Positions 218 through 9,003 of a stretch of 64,000 bases of DNA are shown one piece after another. Source of the stretch: Pseudomonadota bacterium (lineage in GTDB: Bacteria; Myxococcota_A; UBA9160; SZUA-336); NCBI GenBank assembly GCA_003247575.1, contig QJZC01000019.1, positions 62,001-126,000 on the forward strand. Direction: 5' to 3'. The position numbers were made by a program, and so were the translations under genes. The notes beneath the pieces are model-generated. The model saw nothing but the letters and a program-made list of their open reading frames with translations, made no database searches and was not told the origin of the DNA. Position 1 is the first letter of the stretch; each line of letters starts with the position of its first letter.

Positions 218-2338
218 ATGCAGATCCCACGTCCCGGCCGTACTCCCTCGAGGCTTCGCGTCGCGCTCTGGACCTGCTTGCTCGCGTCGTTGCAGGGATG
301 CGCCTACGTTCCCTTCGTGGCGGGACGCGCCGACGGCGTTCTCGAGCAGACAGGAGTGGAGTCGCATTCCCCAGCTTCGTCCAATGCCTCGCGGCCGAGT
401 TCGACACGCGCGCCAGCGGGCCCGCGCGTGACGTCCCTCGAGCTCGCGGGCCACGAGGCCCTCGACGCGGACACGCTGGCGCCCTTCCTCCCCTTTCCAA
501 TGCCGAGTCGCGCGCGCGCAGTCTGGAGCGAACCGCCACTCTACGACGCAGTCGCACTCGACGACGCGGTAGACCAGCTCCTGAATCTCTATCGCCGACG
601 CGGTTACTTCGATGCGCACATCGAACCGCGTCTCGAGTGGAGCGAAGATCGATCCCAGGTTCGCATCCGGCTCGAGATCCGGGAGGGCGCACCCGTGCGC
701 GTCACCGATCGCGGCCTGGAGTTCGCGCAGGGTGCGCGGGCCAGCCGGCTCCCGCTCGCCGCGCTGACGGAGGGGCTACCGCTCGCGACCGGCGACATCT
801 TCGAGATCGGTCGCTACGACGCGAGCAAGCAGCAGATCCTGAGCCGCCTACGCGAAGCTGGGCATCTCGAAGCGCGGCTCGAAGGGGGCGCAGAGATCGA
901 CGTCGTAACCCGCTCAGCCGTAGTTCGTTGGTCGCTGGACCCTGGGCCGCTGGTCCTGCTCGGACCGGTGCAGATCGAGGGCCTGACACGCCTCGATCCG
1001 AAGGTGATCGGCAAGGAGCTCGAGGGCCGGCCGGGCGCCCCCCTCGCGGCCAGCTGGCTCGAGGATGCTCAGCGACGACTGTCCGAGCTCGGCTGGTTTC
1101 GTTCGGTCACCGTAGCGGCCGCACGCGAAGCAACGCCCCCGCTCGCGGAAGGGCTAGCAACGGCCACGGACATCGCCGCAACGACGGAGTCGGTGAGCGA
1201 GGCACCCCCGCGAGTGCAGTTGGAGCTGCAACCAACCGCGCTCCCCGCCGTGGGAGATGCGAGCGAAGGCCCATCTGCACCCCTGCTCTCGACAGCCGAG
1301 ACATGGCCGGTGCTGATCCGCGTCGAGGAGCGTCCACCCCGCAGCGTGCGCGCATCCGTGGGCTACGGCACCGAGGATCGCGCTCGCGTAGAGCTCGGTT
1401 GGCAGCATCGACACCTGCTCGGAAGCGGGCGGGCGCTGCGCGTTCGCGCGCGTCACTCCAGCTTGCTGACCGGCCTGGAGTTCGACGTGCGCTTCCCGCG
1501 CTTCGCGGGAACCCGCATGCTGGCTGATCTGACCTTGGACGGCCGGCAGGAGACGCTGGGCGCTTACGATGCGCGCCGCCTCGAAGCACGGCTCGAATTC
1601 GCTCGCAGCCTCCAAGGCGGTGCACATCTGCGCTTCGGACATCGCGTGAGTGCCACTCGGATCGACGACGTGTCACCAGCCGCGTTCGCAGTCCTCGATG
1701 ATCCGGAGGAGTCGTCGATCCAGAGCGCGACGTTCGCGCAACTCGACCTCGGTCGCATCGACGACGCCACCGCACCGCGACACGGTCAGAGCATGCGACT
1801 CTTCTCGTCGCTCGCCACGCAGGCACTCGGGTCGGACGACTCGTACATCAAGAGCGAGCTGGATCTGCGTGCCTTTCGGCCACTGGCCGAGCTGGGCCTG
1901 TCCGCTCGCGGAGTCGTTGCGGGAAGGGTCCGGGTAGCTACCACGCTCCCACTCGGAACGACCCAGGCCGAGGATGTGCCCCTGCCGGAACGGCTCTTCG
2001 CGGGTGGTGGCGACTCAGTGCGCGGCTTCGAATTCCAACAGCTCGGCCCGCTCGATGCGACGAACGAGCCGCTCGGGGGCACGAGTCTGCTGGTGGCCAA
2101 TCTCGAATGGCGCGTGCCCCTGACCGAGCGCTTCGGGGGCGTGCTGTTCCTGGACGCGGGACAGGTAGACCTCGAGCCCCTGAATTTTCGTCCCTCGAAT
2201 CTCCAGTACGCAGTGGGTGCCGGTTTGAGAATCTCGACTCCGGTCGGGCCACTTCGCCTCGACCTCGCCTCGCTGCTCAATCCACATCGCGATCTCGATC
2301 GCTTTCGGATTCACTTTTCCGTTGGCCACACCTTCTGA
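218..2338 (+). CDS. tamA: TamA-like Omp85 outer-membrane protein, predicted lipoprotein
   Basis: From the ATG at 218 the protein is 706 aa. It has an N-terminal hydrophobic segment ending in LQGC (Cys28), a plausible lipobox. POTRA-like repeats occupy about residues 65-340 (for example VLLGPVQIEGL followed by a helix and GWFRSVTV). A low-complexity Ala/Glu/Pro insert follows, then an Omp85 beta-barrel from about residue 370 with the diagnostic VRGF motif (GGGDSVRGFEF) near the C-terminus, ending in VGHTF. TamA works with TamB in outer-membrane biogenesis and transport between membranes. tamB follows directly, which favours TamA over BamA. The ORF track starts at 164, but the 218 start gives a normal signal sequence. 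Lipidation is unusual for proteobacterial TamA and recalls TamL of Bacteroidetes. Confidence 0.88.
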   Translation: MQIPRPGRTPSRLRVALWTCLLASLQGCAYVPFVAGRADGVLEQTGVESHSPASSNASRPSSTRAPAGPRVTSLELAGHEALDADTLAPFLPFPMPSRARAVWSEPPLYDAVALDDAVDQLLNLYRRRGYFDAHIEPRLEWSEDRSQVRIRLEIREGAPVRVTDRGLEFAQGARASRLPLAALTEGLPLATGDIFEIGRYDASKQQILSRLREAGHLEARLEGGAEIDVVTRSAVVRWSLDPGPLVLLGPVQIEGLTRLDPKVIGKELEGRPGAPLAASWLEDAQRRLSELGWFRSVTVAAAREATPPLAEGLATATDIAATTESVSEAPPRVQLELQPTALPAVGDASEGPSAPLLSTAETWPVLIRVEERPPRSVRASVGYGTEDRARVELGWQHRHLLGSGRALRVRARHSSLLTGLEFDVRFPRFAGTRMLADLTLDGRQETLGAYDARRLEARLEFARSLQGGAHLRFGHRVSATRIDDVSPAAFAVLDDPEESSIQSATFAQLDLGRIDDATAPRHGQSMRLFSSLATQALGSDDSYIKSELDLRAFRPLAELGLSARGVVAGRVRVATTLPLGTTQAEDVPLPERLFAGGGDSVRGFEFQQLGPLDATNEPLGGTSLLVANLEWRVPLTERFGGVLFLDAGQVDLEPLNFRPSNLQYAVGAGLRISTPVGPLRLDLASLLNPHRDLDRFRIHFSVGHTF

Positions 2339-2396
2339 GGAAACGCGCGGCTGCGCAGTCAGCGACAAGCACCGCCGCGGGCGGGGGGCACACGCC

Positions 2397-5300
2397 GTGC
2401 GCGCGGCGTTGCTGCTGATCGGAGCGTCGGCTCTCGCTGCCATCGCCGCGCTGCTACTCGTACTCTGGGTCGGAGGTCCCCCTCCGAGCTGGGTCCGAGG
2501 CGCGCTCGAATCCGTGCTCGCACAACAGCTCGATGCCGAGGTCGAGATCGCATCGATCGCGCGCCCGGTCTATCCGGAGCTACGCCTGCGGAATCTCTCG
2601 CTGCGCTGGCCCGGCGGCGGCCGCTTCGAGGTACGCGAGCTGCGGATCGACTACGCCGTCTCACTCGCGGGTTTCCTCGCGGGTGAGCCGGCAGAGATTC
2701 GGATCGACGAGATTCGGCTGATCCATCCGACCCTCAGCTGGGATGGGGCACTGCCGGGCACGCAGGACCCGGATTCTGGGCTGCCCGAACCCGAGGACAG
2801 CGCTGGCGCTGCCGGCTTTCCGCAGATCCGATTCCAGCTGGACCGCGTGTCGATCTCCGAAGGGCAGCTCGCCTGGGACCCCGCTCCTCAGCCCCCGGTC
2901 CGAGGCCCTGCACTGTCCGCACCCGAGGCGACCCATCGCATCTCCCTGTCGATCAGCGGACGCGCCTCGGAGTTCGATCTGGATCAGCCGCTGCCCCTCC
3001 CGACAGAAGCAGAAGCCAAGCTGGACTGGGCGGCATTCAGCTTCCAGGGCCGCCAGATCGCCCCTGGCGCTGCGAACCTGAGCTGGAGCGGTCGGCAGCT
3101 GGAAATCGACGACTTCCGAGGGACGCTCGAAGCCGCTCGCCTGGCCGGAGAGGCCAGCATCGCATTCTCGACACAGCCGTCCGAGCTCTCTCCGCAAACC
3201 GCCCGAATCGCGCTCGCAGTCAGCGGAGTAGATCTCGCACGCCTCTCACCGCTGGAACAGCTCAGATCCGACCTGCAGGGTGAGATCTCTGCAGAGATTT
3301 CCTTCACCGACACGGCTGCGCCGCAGGGGCAGATCCGTGCAGAGCTACGAGGACCCGCCGCGGGGCTTGCGATCGACGAGATCGCGCTCGATCTGCGCTT
3401 CTCCGACCGGGGCTTCACGCTCGAGTCCGCCATCATCGACGGCCTCGCGGCCCGCCTACGCGCGCGATCGGCGAGCGAACTCCCTGACGCCTTCCGCTTC
3501 GACCTCGAGGTGCCCGACCTGTCTCGCCTCGAACTTCCAGGGGTGAGTCCCCTGGGTCTCTCCGGTCGGCTCTCCGGGGAGGGCGTCCTGGGCCTGGTAG
3601 ACGGACGCCCCGAAGGCTGGGCGGAACTCACCGCGAACCCGATCGCGTGGTCGGGCTTTCACGCGGACCAGCTCACCCTGCGCCTCGAGCCGGCTGCAGA
3701 CCAGCTCCGCGGAACCGTCTCGTTCACAAACCTGGGCGGCGTATCGGGACGCACCGACGCCACCTTGCCCGCGGCCATGTATGCGGAGCTTCGAGAGGGC
3801 ACAATCACATGGACGCACCTCCGCGACCTCTCGCTCGAATGGACCCTACGCAGCGACGACATCGGCCCACTGCTGGGCAAGACCAGGCCCGACTGGCCGC
3901 GGGTCCACAGCCAGCTCGAGAGCAGCGGGCGGCTTCGCGGGCTGGAGCCGATGCGCGAGCTCGAGGCGAGCCTCGCCCTGCGCGCGCTCTCGCTCACCCG
4001 CGACGACGCGACTCGCCTCGACACGCTCACGGTCCGTGAGCCGATCTCGCTCGACCTGCAGCTGGCTCTCGCAGGGCCGCTCGAGCACTCCCGCCGATCC
4101 GAGGTTCCGCGCGGCCAGCTTCCGCGGGGCAGTGTTCCAGTGGGCGAGCCCGCAACGCGTTCGCTTTCGACCAAACTGAGCGCGAAGGGGCCACTGGGCC
4201 TCGAGCTTCTCGCCGAGCTCGGCATTCCCTTCGCTGCGGACGGTCAGCTCCCCTCGGGTGATGTCGATCTGCGCAAGCTCGAGCTGACCCGCCGATCCCC
4301 GCAGGGCGCTGGTGGAGTCCTGACGGCCTCTGGATCCGTCGGCCACACCGGGGAGTTGGACTTGGGAATCGAGCTACGCGACCTCGCGCTCGGCTCGGTG
4401 CCCTGGTCCGAGTGGCTCGCAGAGCCTCCCCAGCTCGGTGGTGATCTGCGCGCAGACCTCAGGCTCCGAGGTCCATGGACTCGCCCAGAGCTCGATGGGA
4501 AGCTGGTCTGGAGCGATCCACGGGTCGAAGAGACGAGGGCCGACCAGCTCGAGTTCCGCATCGCTTCATCGAACTCTGCGCTCGATGTCGTCGGCGAGTT
4601 GGACGCGCTCGGGATCCGGGTCGCTACCGTGCAGGCAAGGATCCCCCGACAGGCAAACGGCGGCCTGAGCGACGAGGCCCCGCTCGGACTCTCGTGGCGG
4701 TCTACCAGTGCCGAGATCGAGACGCAGGATCTCGACGTTGCGCTGCTGGATCCCTTGTTGCCTCGCGCCGTGGATGCGCCCAGCGGCAAGCTCCGGATGC
4801 GACTCGAAGCGATCGCCTCCGGGACTGGAGCGGGAGGCTCGGTAGAGGCTGGCGCCGGCTGGCGTCCCGAAGTTCGCGGCCGGGTCGACCTACGCGAGGG
4901 CAGCCTGTCGATCCCCGCGCTGCGACGCACCTTCGCTCCCATCTCGGGAACCCTGCACTTCTCACCCAAGCGCTTGTCCCTGGAAGCTCTGGAGATCGCG
5001 AACGCGGGCGCAGAAGGGCGGGCGACTCTCACGGGCTACGTCGAGCTCGAGCAGGGTTTGCCGGGTGCTGCGCGCCTCGACGCTCGTTTCGAGACTCTTC
5101 AGCTCGCCGATTCCAGGAGACTTCGCTTCGCGCTGGACGGTCAGACTACGCTTCGCGGTCCGCTCGAGGCGCTCGAGTTCTCCGGCAAGCTCAGCTTGCG
5201 AGACGCACGTCTGGGGGCGCCGGAGGAGTCCGATCCCATCTGGCGCGAGGTGCGCGTCCTTCGCGAGCGCTCGGTCGGCACCCAGGTCCGCGAGACCCCG

Positions 5301-6050
5301 GACGAGCTCGCGCGTGCATTCACGAACATGCGAGGGTCACTCGCCCTCAACGTTCCCGCGCAGACGTGGGTACGGGCACAGGGCGCCGAGCTCGAGCTCG
5401 TGGGGCAGGTCGAGTTACGCAAACGCCCCGGCGACGTGGCGCGCTTCTTCGGGAACCTCGACGTACGCCGAGGGCGCTATCAGTTCGGTCCCAGACTGCT
5501 GGTGTTCGAGCGCGGAAGCGCGACCCTGACCGGGGCAGCGGAGCTCGACCCACTCATCGACGTGCTCACCACGACGCGCATCCAAGAGTACGACGTCAGC
5601 GTCGGATTGAACGGGCGCCTCTCGAACCTGCAGCTCAGCACGAGCAGCTCGCCCAGCCTGGAGCGAGACGACGTGCTCTCGCTGTTGCTCTTCGGGCGGC
5701 GCCGAGGTGATCTCGAAGCTTCCCGGGCAAAGGCACTGCAGCTCGCCCTCACCCAGCTCGGCTCGGAGCTCGGGGGGAGCCAGCTCCAGGAACGACTACG
5801 CAGCTATCTACCTTTCGACACCTTCGCCTTCGAGGTCGGCCCTGGAGCGTCCGGAAGTCGTTTCGAAGTCGGTCGCTACATACGAGATGACATCTTCGTA
5901 CGCTACGGGAAGAGCCTCGCGACCGATCGCGAGCTAGAGAGCGACCAGGTCTCCGTCGAGTGGGAGGTCACGCCTTCGGTGAGCATAAAAAGCGAGACCT
6001 CGACGGACGGCTCGACCGGCGCGGACATCATTTGGCAGAAGGACTACTGA
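2397..6050 (+). CDS. tamB: Translocation and assembly module protein TamB (AsmA-like bridge protein)
   Basis: About 1,217 aa. One N-terminal membrane helix (AALLLIGASALAAIAALLLV) is followed by a very long periplasmic region of repeated beta-rich segments typical of AsmA/TamB/YhdP lipid-transfer bridges. The DUF490/TamB C-terminal domain is at the end (VGLNGRLSNLQLS, SPSLERDDVLSLLLFG, QVSVEWEVTPSVSIKSETS). TamB spans from the inner membrane to TamA and is thought to carry phospholipid to the outer membrane. The track begins at a TTG at 2322, overlapping tamA, with no ribosome-binding site. The GTG at 2397 has GGGGGG about 9 nt upstream and leaves a normal short N-terminus, so I prefer it. The 3' end overlaps the convergent rimB-like gene by 23 bp. 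Confidence 0.9.
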   Translation: MRAALLLIGASALAAIAALLLVLWVGGPPPSWVRGALESVLAQQLDAEVEIASIARPVYPELRLRNLSLRWPGGGRFEVRELRIDYAVSLAGFLAGEPAEIRIDEIRLIHPTLSWDGALPGTQDPDSGLPEPEDSAGAAGFPQIRFQLDRVSISEGQLAWDPAPQPPVRGPALSAPEATHRISLSISGRASEFDLDQPLPLPTEAEAKLDWAAFSFQGRQIAPGAANLSWSGRQLEIDDFRGTLEAARLAGEASIAFSTQPSELSPQTARIALAVSGVDLARLSPLEQLRSDLQGEISAEISFTDTAAPQGQIRAELRGPAAGLAIDEIALDLRFSDRGFTLESAIIDGLAARLRARSASELPDAFRFDLEVPDLSRLELPGVSPLGLSGRLSGEGVLGLVDGRPEGWAELTANPIAWSGFHADQLTLRLEPAADQLRGTVSFTNLGGVSGRTDATLPAAMYAELREGTITWTHLRDLSLEWTLRSDDIGPLLGKTRPDWPRVHSQLESSGRLRGLEPMRELEASLALRALSLTRDDATRLDTLTVREPISLDLQLALAGPLEHSRRSEVPRGQLPRGSVPVGEPATRSLSTKLSAKGPLGLELLAELGIPFAADGQLPSGDVDLRKLELTRRSPQGAGGVLTASGSVGHTGELDLGIELRDLALGSVPWSEWLAEPPQLGGDLRADLRLRGPWTRPELDGKLVWSDPRVEETRADQLEFRIASSNSALDVVGELDALGIRVATVQARIPRQANGGLSDEAPLGLSWRSTSAEIETQDLDVALLDPLLPRAVDAPSGKLRMRLEAIASGTGAGGSVEAGAGWRPEVRGRVDLREGSLSIPALRRTFAPISGTLHFSPKRLSLEALEIANAGAEGRATLTGYVELEQGLPGAARLDARFETLQLADSRRLRFALDGQTTLRGPLEALEFSGKLSLRDARLGAPEESDPIWREVRVLRERSVGTQVRETPDELARAFTNMRGSLALNVPAQTWVRAQGAELELVGQVELRKRPGDVARFFGNLDVRRGRYQFGPRLLVFERGSATLTGAAELDPLIDVLTTTRIQEYDVSVGLNGRLSNLQLSTSSSPSLERDDVLSLLLFGRRRGDLEASRAKALQLALTQLGSELGGSQLQERLRSYLPFDTFAFEVGPGASGSRFEVGRYIRDDIFVRYGKSLATDRELESDQVSVEWEVTPSVSIKSETSTDGSTGADIIWQKDY

Positions 6051-6570
6051 CCCGACGGCGCTTCACGCGCTTGACTTGCTTCTTCCGGGGATTGGGACGC
6101 ACTCCGAGGAGATCCTTGTGTCCGACGTCGATCAGCACTCCATGCAGCGCAGAACGTCCGAGCAGCATGCGGTAGATCATCTTCTCCCGATCCACCAGAC
6201 TGATCTCGACCTCACGCTCGATGGGACCGATGCGCAGTACGGTGGTGACGAAGATCCGCGTCGTATAATGCCCGTTGCTCGACCGGACGCGTCCGCGCCG
6301 CGAGATCGGCGCGACGACCCTCACTCGTCGATGCTGCTTCCGACGATGGAGCACGACCTCGAAGCGCACGTCGCGCCCCCTATTCACCTCCTCGATGGCA
6401 TCCACGTGGAGCGCACTCGTGCGCGCGCCCGTATCGGTCTTGGCCCGCAGCCCGCTGATCCCCCACTCGGGTAGCGCCACGTACTCGCTCCAACCGAGCA
6501 CCGGCCGCTCCTCGCTCCGCTTGCGCGTCACCGTCTTGGCTCCCGATTCGCTCCGCCCCAAATCCACCAT
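6028..6570 (-). CDS. rimB: RimB-like retropepsin-type protease (ATP-dependent zinc protease family, COG4067)
   Basis: 180 aa, the size of COG4067/Zn_protease (PF05618) proteins. The signature KTDTGARTSALH starts at residue 44; the DTGA resembles the catalytic D-T-G of retropepsins, and later GRSAL and LIDVG segments complete the fold. Family members cluster with rimK. In Pseudomonas the homologue RimB acts on the poly-glutamate tails RimK adds to ribosomal protein S6. Here it is divergent from rimK across about 170 bp. The basic C-terminal tail (RKKQVKRVKRRR) is unusual and could contact RNA or acidic tails, which is inference. The 3' end overlaps the end of tamB on the opposite strand. Confidence 0.8.
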   Translation of the reverse strand: MVDLGRSESGAKTVTRKRSEERPVLGWSEYVALPEWGISGLRAKTDTGARTSALHVDAIEEVNRGRDVRFEVVLHRRKQHRRVRVVAPISRRGRVRSSNGHYTTRIFVTTVLRIGPIEREVEISLVDREKMIYRMLLGRSALHGVLIDVGHKDLLGVRPNPRKKQVKRVKRRRVSSPSAK

Positions 6571-6742: not shown

Positions 6743-7945
6743 ATGGCGACAGAGTCTCTGAAGATTGCAATCTTGTCGACTGGCCCCAAGCTCTATAGCA
6801 CGCGGCGACTACGCGAGGCCTGTGAGCAGCGAGGTCACAGCGCAAAGGTTCTGAATACGCTTCGCTTCTCGATGCTGGTGCGCGAGAACGAGCCCAAGCT
6901 GCTGTTTCGCGGAAAGGAGCTGTCGAGCTACGATGCGGTCATTCCCCGCATCGGCGCCTCGATCACTCACTATGGATGCGCCGTCGTGCGCCAGTTCGAG
7001 CAGATGGGCGTCTTCTGCGTCAGCACGGCAAACGCGATCTCGGTCTCTCGGGACAAGCTGCGCTCGATCCAGGTTCTGAGCCGACACGAAATCGGGCTGG
7101 CGACCACGGCCTTCGTGAGGCAGCCCGCCGACGTGCTGCCTGCAGTCCAATGGGTGGGTGGAGCCCCAGTCGTCATCAAGGTGCTCGAGGGTACCCAGGG
7201 GATCGGCGTCATCTTGGCAGACTCCCCGAAGATCGCTCAGGCCATCATCGAGACCCTACAGAGCGCAAAGCAGAACGTGCTGATTCAGTCGTTCGTGAAG
7301 GAAAGCCGTGGAACGGACATCCGCGCATTCGTGGTCGGCAACCGTGTCGTAGCCGCGATGCGGAGACGCGCCCAGGGGGACGAGTTCCGCAGCAACGTTC
7401 ACCGCGGCGGACGCACCGAGGCCGTACAGCTCGACCCGGACTACGAGCGCACCGCGATCCACGCCGCACAGGTGCTGGGCCTTCGCGTCGCCGGCGTAGA
7501 CATGCTCGACAGCGACTCGGGGCCCAAGATCATGGAGGTGAACTCATCGCCTGGACTCCAAGGAATCGAGGAGGCAACCAAGATCGATGTCGCGGGAGCG
7601 ATCGTGGAGCTCATCGAAGAAGAGGTCCTCTTCCCAGAAATCGACATCCGGCAGCGCCTCACACTCTCGGCGGGGTACGCCGTCACCGAGGTCCCGATCG
7701 AGGCCAACTCCGAACTGGCGCATCAGACGATTCGCGACTCGAAGCTGCGCGAGCGCGATATCGTCATTCTGAGCATCCGCCGCGGCGGACTCGTGATCCC
7801 TAACCCTCGAGGTGATCGCGAGCTGCTCCCCGGCGACCTACTGCTCTGCTACGGAAAATCTTTGGCGCTCAAGTCGATGGCCCCGAAGCGTATCCGTGCC
7901 AAAACTCCGACGGTCACCGAACGTAACCCGGATTCGAGCGCGTGA
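6743..7945 (+). CDS. rimK: RimK-type ATP-grasp glutamate ligase with C-terminal TrkA-C (RCK_C) domain
   Basis: 400 aa from the ATG at 6743, with GAGAGGA about 9 nt upstream. Residues 1-95 form the RimK N-terminal domain (KIAILSTGPKLYSTRRL). Residues ~100-295 are the ATP-grasp domain, with VVIKVLEGTQGIGV, the DIRAFVVG segment and the metal-binding IMEVNSSPGLQGIE. RimK adds glutamates to the C-terminus of ribosomal protein S6. E. coli RimK ends near residue 300. Here about 90 more residues match an RCK_C/TrkA-C ligand domain (EVPIEANSELAHQTI, ILSIRRGGLVIPNPRG, LLPGDLLLCYG), known from K+ channels and transporters and able in some proteins to bind cyclic di-AMP or other small ligands. The 3' end overlaps the next gene by 4 bp. 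Confidence 0.88.
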   Translation: MATESLKIAILSTGPKLYSTRRLREACEQRGHSAKVLNTLRFSMLVRENEPKLLFRGKELSSYDAVIPRIGASITHYGCAVVRQFEQMGVFCVSTANAISVSRDKLRSIQVLSRHEIGLATTAFVRQPADVLPAVQWVGGAPVVIKVLEGTQGIGVILADSPKIAQAIIETLQSAKQNVLIQSFVKESRGTDIRAFVVGNRVVAAMRRRAQGDEFRSNVHRGGRTEAVQLDPDYERTAIHAAQVLGLRVAGVDMLDSDSGPKIMEVNSSPGLQGIEEATKIDVAGAIVELIEEEVLFPEIDIRQRLTLSAGYAVTEVPIEANSELAHQTIRDSKLRERDIVILSIRRGGLVIPNPRGDRELLPGDLLLCYGKSLALKSMAPKRIRAKTPTVTERNPDSSA

Positions 7946-9003
7946 ACGACATCCGTCAGCACGATCCCATCGAACTCGCAGGAGTCGTGGTCAAGTGCGG
8001 CGAGCACCGGCGCATCGACATTCCGATCACCTCGGCGTATGGCCACGCCCAGGTCTCACTACCAGCCGTGGTGATCCACGGCAGGCGTCCCGGCCCGCGC
8101 CTATTCGTAAGCGCCGCCATTCATGGGGACGAGCTGAACGGCGTCGAGATCATTCGTCGCTTGCGTCATCTAGCCTCGATGCGCAAGCTGTCTGGCACGC
8201 TGATCCTCGTACCGGTCGTCAATGTGTACGGCTTCATCACGCAGAGTCGCTATCTCCCAGATCGTCGCGATCTCAACCGCTCCTTCCCTGGATCCAGTCG
8301 GGGCTCCGTGGCTTCGCGACTCGCCAACGTGTTCATGCAAGCCATCACAAGCCTCTGCACGCACGGAATCGATCTTCACACGGGCTCGAATCATCGGACC
8401 AACCTTCCTCAGATTCGAGCTTGGCTGGATGATCCCGAGACCGAGCGCCTCGCGCGCGCGTTCGGCGTGCCGGTCATTCTGAATTCGAATCTACGCGATG
8501 GCTCCCTGCGCCAAGCCGTGCTCGAGGACAACACTCCAATGCTGCTCTACGAAGCAGGCGAAGCGTTACGCTTCGATGAAATTGCGATTCGAGCGGGCGT
8601 GCGGGGCATCCTGGGCGTGATGCGCGCACTCGAGATGCTCCCGCCGTCGCGCAAGCGCTCGTCACGCGTAGAACCCATGGTTGCGCGCTCCACCGTGTGG
8701 CTACGCGCACCAGAGTCCGGGGTCTTCCGCTTTCTCGTAGGACTCGGCAAGCGCGTACGCGAAGGAGACCTGGTCGGCATCATCTCCGACCCGCTGGGGG
8801 ACGAGGAGATCCCGGTCACCGCATCCAGCAGCGGACTCATCATCGGTCGCACGCAGCTCCCGCTGGTGAATGCCGGGGATGCGCTGATTCACATCGCGAC
8901 CATGGGCCGGCCCGGCGCCGCCGCCGCTGGCGTAGAGACCTTCCACGAAGAGCTCCATCCCGATCTAGCGGAGTCGGAATCTGGGGAGCCTCCGATCCTC
9001 TAG
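7942..9003 (+). CDS. Succinylglutamate desuccinylase/aspartoacylase family zinc hydrolase (M14-like)
   Basis: 353 aa. Zinc ligands are visible as HGDE at residues 61-64 (IHGDELNGVEIIRRL) and His146 in GIDLHTGSN. The family motif DLNRSFPG is at 110-117. The C-terminal third is a beta-rich barrel-like domain (GVFRFLVGLGKRVREGDLVG) seen in AstE/ASPA relatives. These enzymes cleave N-acyl amino acids or related amides. Its ATG lies within the rimK stop region (4-bp overlap), so the two are translationally coupled. RimK, a RimB-like protease and this family recur together, and a role in processing glutamylated products or a ligand of the RimK system is plausible but not shown by sequence. Confidence 0.85.
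   Translation: MNDIRQHDPIELAGVVVKCGEHRRIDIPITSAYGHAQVSLPAVVIHGRRPGPRLFVSAAIHGDELNGVEIIRRLRHLASMRKLSGTLILVPVVNVYGFITQSRYLPDRRDLNRSFPGSSRGSVASRLANVFMQAITSLCTHGIDLHTGSNHRTNLPQIRAWLDDPETERLARAFGVPVILNSNLRDGSLRQAVLEDNTPMLLYEAGEALRFDEIAIRAGVRGILGVMRALEMLPPSRKRSSRVEPMVARSTVWLRAPESGVFRFLVGLGKRVREGDLVGIISDPLGDEEIPVTASSSGLIIGRTQLPLVNAGDALIHIATMGRPGAAAAGVETFHEELHPDLAESESGEPPIL

Follow-up and report, generated by a model that had tools for sequence, protein, structure and literature searches.

Locus and domain architecture

The window, by which we mean the whole 64,000-nucleotide stretch that was analysed, carries a gene for a RimK-type ligase with a C-terminal TrkA_C (RCK_C) domain, situated between the genes for a RimB protease and an AstE/AspA-type deacylase (Table 1). 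About 170 bp separate the starts of the divergent rimB and rimK genes; on the other side, the start of the deacylase gene overlaps the rimK stop as GTGA, and these two genes are likely translationally coupled. Further upstream, an Omp85/TamA-like gene (164-2338) lies divergent from the diadenylate cyclase (DAC) frame at the window's left end, with TamB (2322-6050) next to it.

Table 1. Features of the RimK-RCK_C locus, in window coordinates
Feature	Position	Strand	Evidence
DAC open frame	1-161, on to contig C31:60935	-	PF02457; 409 aa stop to stop
RimB retropepsin-like protease	6028..6570	-	PF05618 7e-25; NCBIfam RimB 4.9e-29 but under cut-off; DTGA motif intact
RimK-RCK_C gene	6743..7945	+	intact 400-aa ORF; Pfam Rimk_N, RimK ATP-grasp, TrkA_C
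RimK ATP-grasp domain, residues 103-291	7049..7615	+	Pfam PF08443 1e-56
TrkA_C / RCK_C domain, residues 314-375	7682..7867	+	Pfam PF02080 1.1e-12; Foldseek to MthK, KtrA, KhtT
AstE/AspA-type zinc deacylase	7942..9003	+	PF24827 8.3e-40; HGDE and DLHT motifs intact

The N-terminal Rimk_N domain was detected at residues 6-99 (Pfam, 5e-39), and the protein scored 240 bits against TIGR00768 (RimK family alpha-L-glutamate ligase), above the curated cut-off of 143.4. It did not reach the equivalog cut-off of NF007764 (30S ribosomal protein S6--L-glutamate ligase), scoring 319.9 bits against the 331 set for that model. The original prediction of a RimK fused to an RCK_C domain, which an HMM search without an RCK_C match was to refute, is upheld by a TrkA_C match of 48.1 bits (gathering cut-off, 27 bits). 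While the domain is thus present, its extent is nearer 75 residues (about 306-381) than the roughly 90 that had been proposed. As the window genome holds four further TrkA_C matches besides the RimK fusion, the domain genuinely belongs to a common family and is not a chance match.

Structure prediction pointed the same way. The full-length AlphaFold2 model had a mean pLDDT of 86, with about 90 in the C-terminal domain and disorder at residues 385-400. When the C-terminal 90 residues were modelled alone (pLDDT 82), Foldseek returned the solved RCK_C domains of PH0236, MthK, TM1088A/B, KtrC, KtrA and KhtT at a probability of 1.00 and a TM-score of about 0.7. At the level of the model, the RCK_C fold of the RimK C-terminal domain is confirmed.

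The fused proteins form a widespread subfamily

Scanning 84,980 species genomes, we obtained at least 560 stretches encoding relatives, of which 80 were kept; these come from Planctomycetota, Verrucomicrobiota, Actinomycetota, Acidobacteriota, Pseudomonadota, Chloroflexota and unplaced bacteria. The TrkA_C domain is present in all 90 aligned relatives of the window RimK, covering at least six phyla. In hundreds of genomes, RimK and TrkA_C both pass the Pfam cut-offs, and since the architecture is that widespread with both domains detected, it is visible to any Pfam scan. Nevertheless, a literature search, which covered a minority of subscription papers, returned no paper on RimK with TrkA-C, nor on RCK_C with ATP-grasp. 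The domain architecture is real and conserved, and apparently undescribed. A survey from 2009 reportedly dealt with the gene contexts of amidoligases.

The share of fused proteins differs between lineages. All close RimK homologues in the Actinomycetes sample were fused (4 of 79 genomes, seed included), the Gammaproteobacteria sample had a fusion in one of 43 RimK carriers (the seed), and among Planctomycetota 13 of 32 RimK carriers were fused, several of them with an unfused copy as well. Within the class to which the window belongs, the fusion occurs in about 10 of 60 genomes. When a tree was built from the ATP-grasp columns of 54 fused and 29 unfused proteins, a branch supported at 100/100 separated the fused RimKs from the unfused ones, and a second such tree (47 fused and 41 unfused proteins, including paralogues from the same genomes) gave the same split, again at 100/100. 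By these sequence comparisons, the fused RimKs are an ancient paralogous subfamily that is widespread in bacteria. With the root left unplaced, the trees are compatible with one gain of RCK_C as well as with one loss. Besides, the two groups show fixed differences, among them position 256, which is Glu in 89 of the 90 fused proteins (Asp in the window protein) versus Arg in 38 of 39 unfused ones. They also differ at their C-terminus: unfused proteins extend 11-14 residues past the ATP-grasp match, mostly as a basic TRTRGKG-like tail, where the fused ones run on into RCK_C.

Two side observations concern individual carriers. On contig C107 of one genome (L145-L147), two complete RimK-RCK_C genes and a further, partial match lie within 50 kb, and RimK frames at three loci in Gammaproteobacteria genomes (L173, L182, L186) contain one to several internal stops, i.e. 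they are pseudogenes, carry sequence errors, or reflect a match overrunning the true stop.

Ligase chemistry and the acceptor

The ATP-grasp residues K105, K146, E265 and N267 are intact in the window protein, and the catalytic and ATP-grasp residues are invariant. In Pseudomonas aeruginosa RimK, seven side chains touch polyglutamate (S7, R8, S14, R64, S68, R189 and N262; PMC10092738). Six of these contacts are retained in the window protein (S12, S19, R69, S73, R194 and N267), and all six positions are invariant or nearly so across the fused clade. The exception is the equivalent of R8, which is Thr13 in the window protein and Arg, Cys or Thr in 51, 21 and 12 of the 90 fused relatives, respectively. 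Given that catalytic and polyglutamate-contact residues are kept, glutamate polymerisation is the likely chemistry of fused RimK.

As for the acceptor, the enzyme had been described as ribosome-modifying, a label carried over from E. coli and Pseudomonas, which would make it a standard S6 ligase with an additional regulatory part, acting on ribosomal protein S6 in the window organism. Its nearest solved relatives are Pseudomonas RimK proteins, and the S6 of the window genome (L124) ends in DDDDDDEEED, an acidic tail that makes S6 possible as a substrate there; for comparison, S6 ends in GDSEE in E. coli and in DNADE in P. fluorescens (PMC11957791). Against this stand the score below the S6-ligase equivalog cut-off, the side-by-side occurrence of fused and unfused RimK in several genomes and the acidic S6 tails in genomes of the same class that lack the fusion. 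Besides, S6 lacks an acidic tail in 15 actinobacterial fusion carriers, ending either after the core or in a Lys/Ala-rich stretch, which makes S6 doubtful as a substrate in Actinomycetota and most unlikely as the general substrate of the fused subfamily. On balance, we regard modification of S6 in the window organism as rather doubtful. The acceptor of fused RimK might instead be free polyglutamate, the tail of another protein or a small molecule.

Within the window's class, long Ala/Glu/Asp-rich S6 tails were seen irrespective of whether the genome has a RimK-RCK_C gene. A missing terminal Glu of S6 was rejected as a sign of another substrate, in that Ala, Gly or Val is also a frequent last residue of S6 among gammaproteobacterial carriers of unfused RimK; the argument was restricted to the complete absence of an acidic tail in Actinomycetota.

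Gene neighbourhood

Near fused RimK, RimB was found in 56 and AspA in 46 of the 80 relatives, and the AstE/AspA deacylase adjoins the fusion at nine of ten other loci of the window's class. Among the flanking genes scanned, there was no EAL match that would indicate rimA (EAL phosphodiesterase), a gene that is missing in some Pseudomonas too (PMC10092738). MgtE, CorA, CNNM, Usp and DAC neighbours of fused RimK were confirmed with Pfam. MscS lay within 5 kb of eight of the 80 fused loci versus 0.9 expected at 132 per 121 Mb (P about 5e-6, with loci taken as independent although some are related).

A control set of 40 unfused RimK loci, however, gave the same or higher rates: RimB was present in 35, AspA in 29, MscS in four (versus 0.45 expected within 5 kb) and any ion family in 13. 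We thus rejected the RimB, AspA and ion-channel neighbours as a clue to a sensor role; equally frequent at unfused RimK, the cassette and the channel excess are uninformative on the RCK_C ligand and on the reason for having a sensor. Rather, the MscS excess, together with the CorA, MgtE and CNNM neighbours, suggests an osmotic or Mg2+ role of the RimK module in general. An osmotic role fits the enrichment of rimK orthologues (K05844) in brackish over marine genomes (PMC10219603), as well as the phenotype of RloA, whose members are RimB homologues that cleave polyglutamate and are required in hypo-osmotic medium (PMC12239564). The literature search found no paper discussing MscS or CorA adjoining RimK cassettes.

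In the unfused set (L248-L287), CorA or MscS occurred within 5 kb at 11 of 40 loci, with MscS above the expectation from channel density. Separately, ion-transport islands with DAC, MscS, CorA, MgtE, CNNM/CorC, Usp and a Na/Ca exchanger were observed at a same-class locus (L158) and at L146, L148 and L149. The RimK-RCK_C cassette sits inside some of them, and gene order varies.

Candidate ligands of the RCK_C domain

In the alignment of the 90 fused relatives, R347, P355, D339 and E/D337 of the RCK_C domain are conserved, positions 337 and 339 each being acidic in 86 of them. By profile, KtrC, KtrA and KhtT are among the nearest solved RCK_C domains, and the domain might, as in KtrA, KhtT and BusR, bind c-di-AMP at its dimer interface, here switching polyglutamate synthesis in K+/osmolyte control. 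The window genome has two DAC genes, one of them 7 kb from rimK, and a DAC lies less than 10 kb from the fusion in four of ten same-class genomes that differ in gene order (chance about 1e-6 if the genomes are independent). While c-di-AMP is a plausible ligand in the window organism, no DAC was found in the fusion carriers Seongchinamella, Ectothiorhodospiraceae WFHF3C12 and Microbacterium marinilacus, and within the window's class a DAC also occurs in an ion-transport island that has no RimK (L158). The known c-di-AMP pocket shows poor conservation. In BusR, the c-di-AMP pocket has a polar rim of N157 and H160 (PMC8517857); in fused RimK the hydrophobic I330 and L335 are kept, yet the polar rim is replaced, N157 and H160 aligning with Gly/Lys334 and Glu/Asp337, which together with the conserved Asp339 would not favour phosphates (with an uncertain alignment register at the pocket proline). 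All in all, we consider a c-di-AMP sensor unlikely.

A PNP motif shared with KtrA was not counted, in that a gapless profile alignment sets the invariant P355 on the first proline of KtrA and not on the pocket proline. An apparent DAC at one further locus (L036) was likewise dismissed, being an ORF without a Pfam match and antisense to the adjoining frame.

The conserved acids at 337 and 339, combined with an MthK-like fold, could alternatively sense a divalent cation (Mg2+ or Ca2+) or another small ligand such as an amine. MthK, which is gated by Ca2+, occupies most of the top Foldseek ranks, though it is over-represented in the PDB; the Mg2+ transporters MgtE, CorA and CNNM often adjoin the fusion, though they adjoin unfused RimK as well. 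A sensor of this type also appears improbable to us.

Finally, the original prediction invoked the modulation of RimK by nucleotide second messengers in Pseudomonas. Such an effect exists, as Pseudomonas RimK is stimulated by c-di-GMP, albeit not by c-di-AMP (PMC10092738). It lends no support to sensing by RCK_C, since Pseudomonas RimK is devoid of this domain.

Discussion

We propose that the fused protein is a poly-alpha-L-glutamate ligase controlled by a dimeric C-terminal RCK_C sensor and operating in osmotic or ionic homeostasis, a model that we hold to be as probable as its negation and whose product, allostery and osmotic role are inferred. The ATP-grasp part would add glutamate at the C-terminal end of its acceptor, be it a protein tail or growing free polyglutamate; RimB would trim the polyglutamate product and the AspA-like deacylase would process a small product. 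RimK assembles as a dimer of dimers, and RCK_C domains also dimerise; the latter may thus pair just past the ATP-grasp domain, in the place of the short basic tail of unfused enzymes, and ligand binding might rotate the pair such that the ATP-grasp clam opens or closes. In Pseudomonas, control of ATPase activity has been tied to the RimK C-terminal region (PMC10092738), the part that is joined to RCK_C in the fusion.

On the other hand, RCK_C might have a structural role only, stabilising the RimK oligomer and sensing nothing. RCK_C domains can dimerise without ligand, as in BusR (PMC8517857), and RimK is itself oligomeric (PMC10092738), but the conservation of R347, P355, D339 and E/D337 seems to go beyond what a bare dimer interface needs. 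To us, a purely structural role has little probability. The idea of a built-in sensor, in turn, is reasonable and testable as judged from the fusion, its cross-phylum conservation and the modelled fold. The evidence on the ribosomal and c-di-AMP parts of the original prediction is mixed, and the prediction as a whole is supported in part.

Should RCK_C gate the ligase, glutamylation would respond directly to K+ or nucleotide signalling, and culturable Microbacterium, Knoellia or Seongchinamella strains would allow a test of what purpose RimK-type modification serves outside E. coli and Pseudomonas. A further-reaching version, to which we assign a small chance, is a c-di-AMP-gated or ion-gated polyglutamate synthase, spread over at least six phyla, whose RCK_C directly controls the synthesis of an acidic polymer or tag on proteins that serves osmotic balance. 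If true, RCK_C signalling would reach past transporters and transcription factors. Either way, the automatic name "ribosomal protein S6 ligase" that is given to close relatives is unsafe for the fused subfamily.

Among known systems, the RimK enzymes of Pseudomonas and E. coli (7QYS, 7QYR, 5ZCT, 4IWX) likewise consist of Rimk_N and ATP-grasp, share six of the seven polyglutamate contacts and have RimB adjoining, but, unlike the fused proteins, lack RCK_C, end in the short basic TRTRGKG-like tail and have Arg in place of Glu/Asp256. Unfused relatives are about 50-55% identical over Rimk_N and ATP-grasp. With the rimABK operon of Pseudomonas, the window locus shares a rimB beside rimK, although on the opposite strand and with no rimA among the neighbours scanned. 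The RloABC system of Pseudomonas aeruginosa similarly links a retropepsin and an ATP-grasp ligase to polyglutamate and osmotic stress; however, its proteases are secreted, RloC is just 24% identical to RimK, and RCK_C goes unmentioned in the RloABC paper. The RCK_C domains of KtrA/KtrC, KhtT and MthK have the same fold as that of the fusion but belong to K+ channels or transporters, whereas fused RimK has neither a membrane partner nor an RCK_N domain. In this respect, it resembles BusR, a c-di-AMP-regulated GntR repressor in osmotic control that carries a C-terminal RCK_C on a non-transporter, yet BusR is a transcription factor rather than a ligase, and its pocket residues are other than those of fused RimK.
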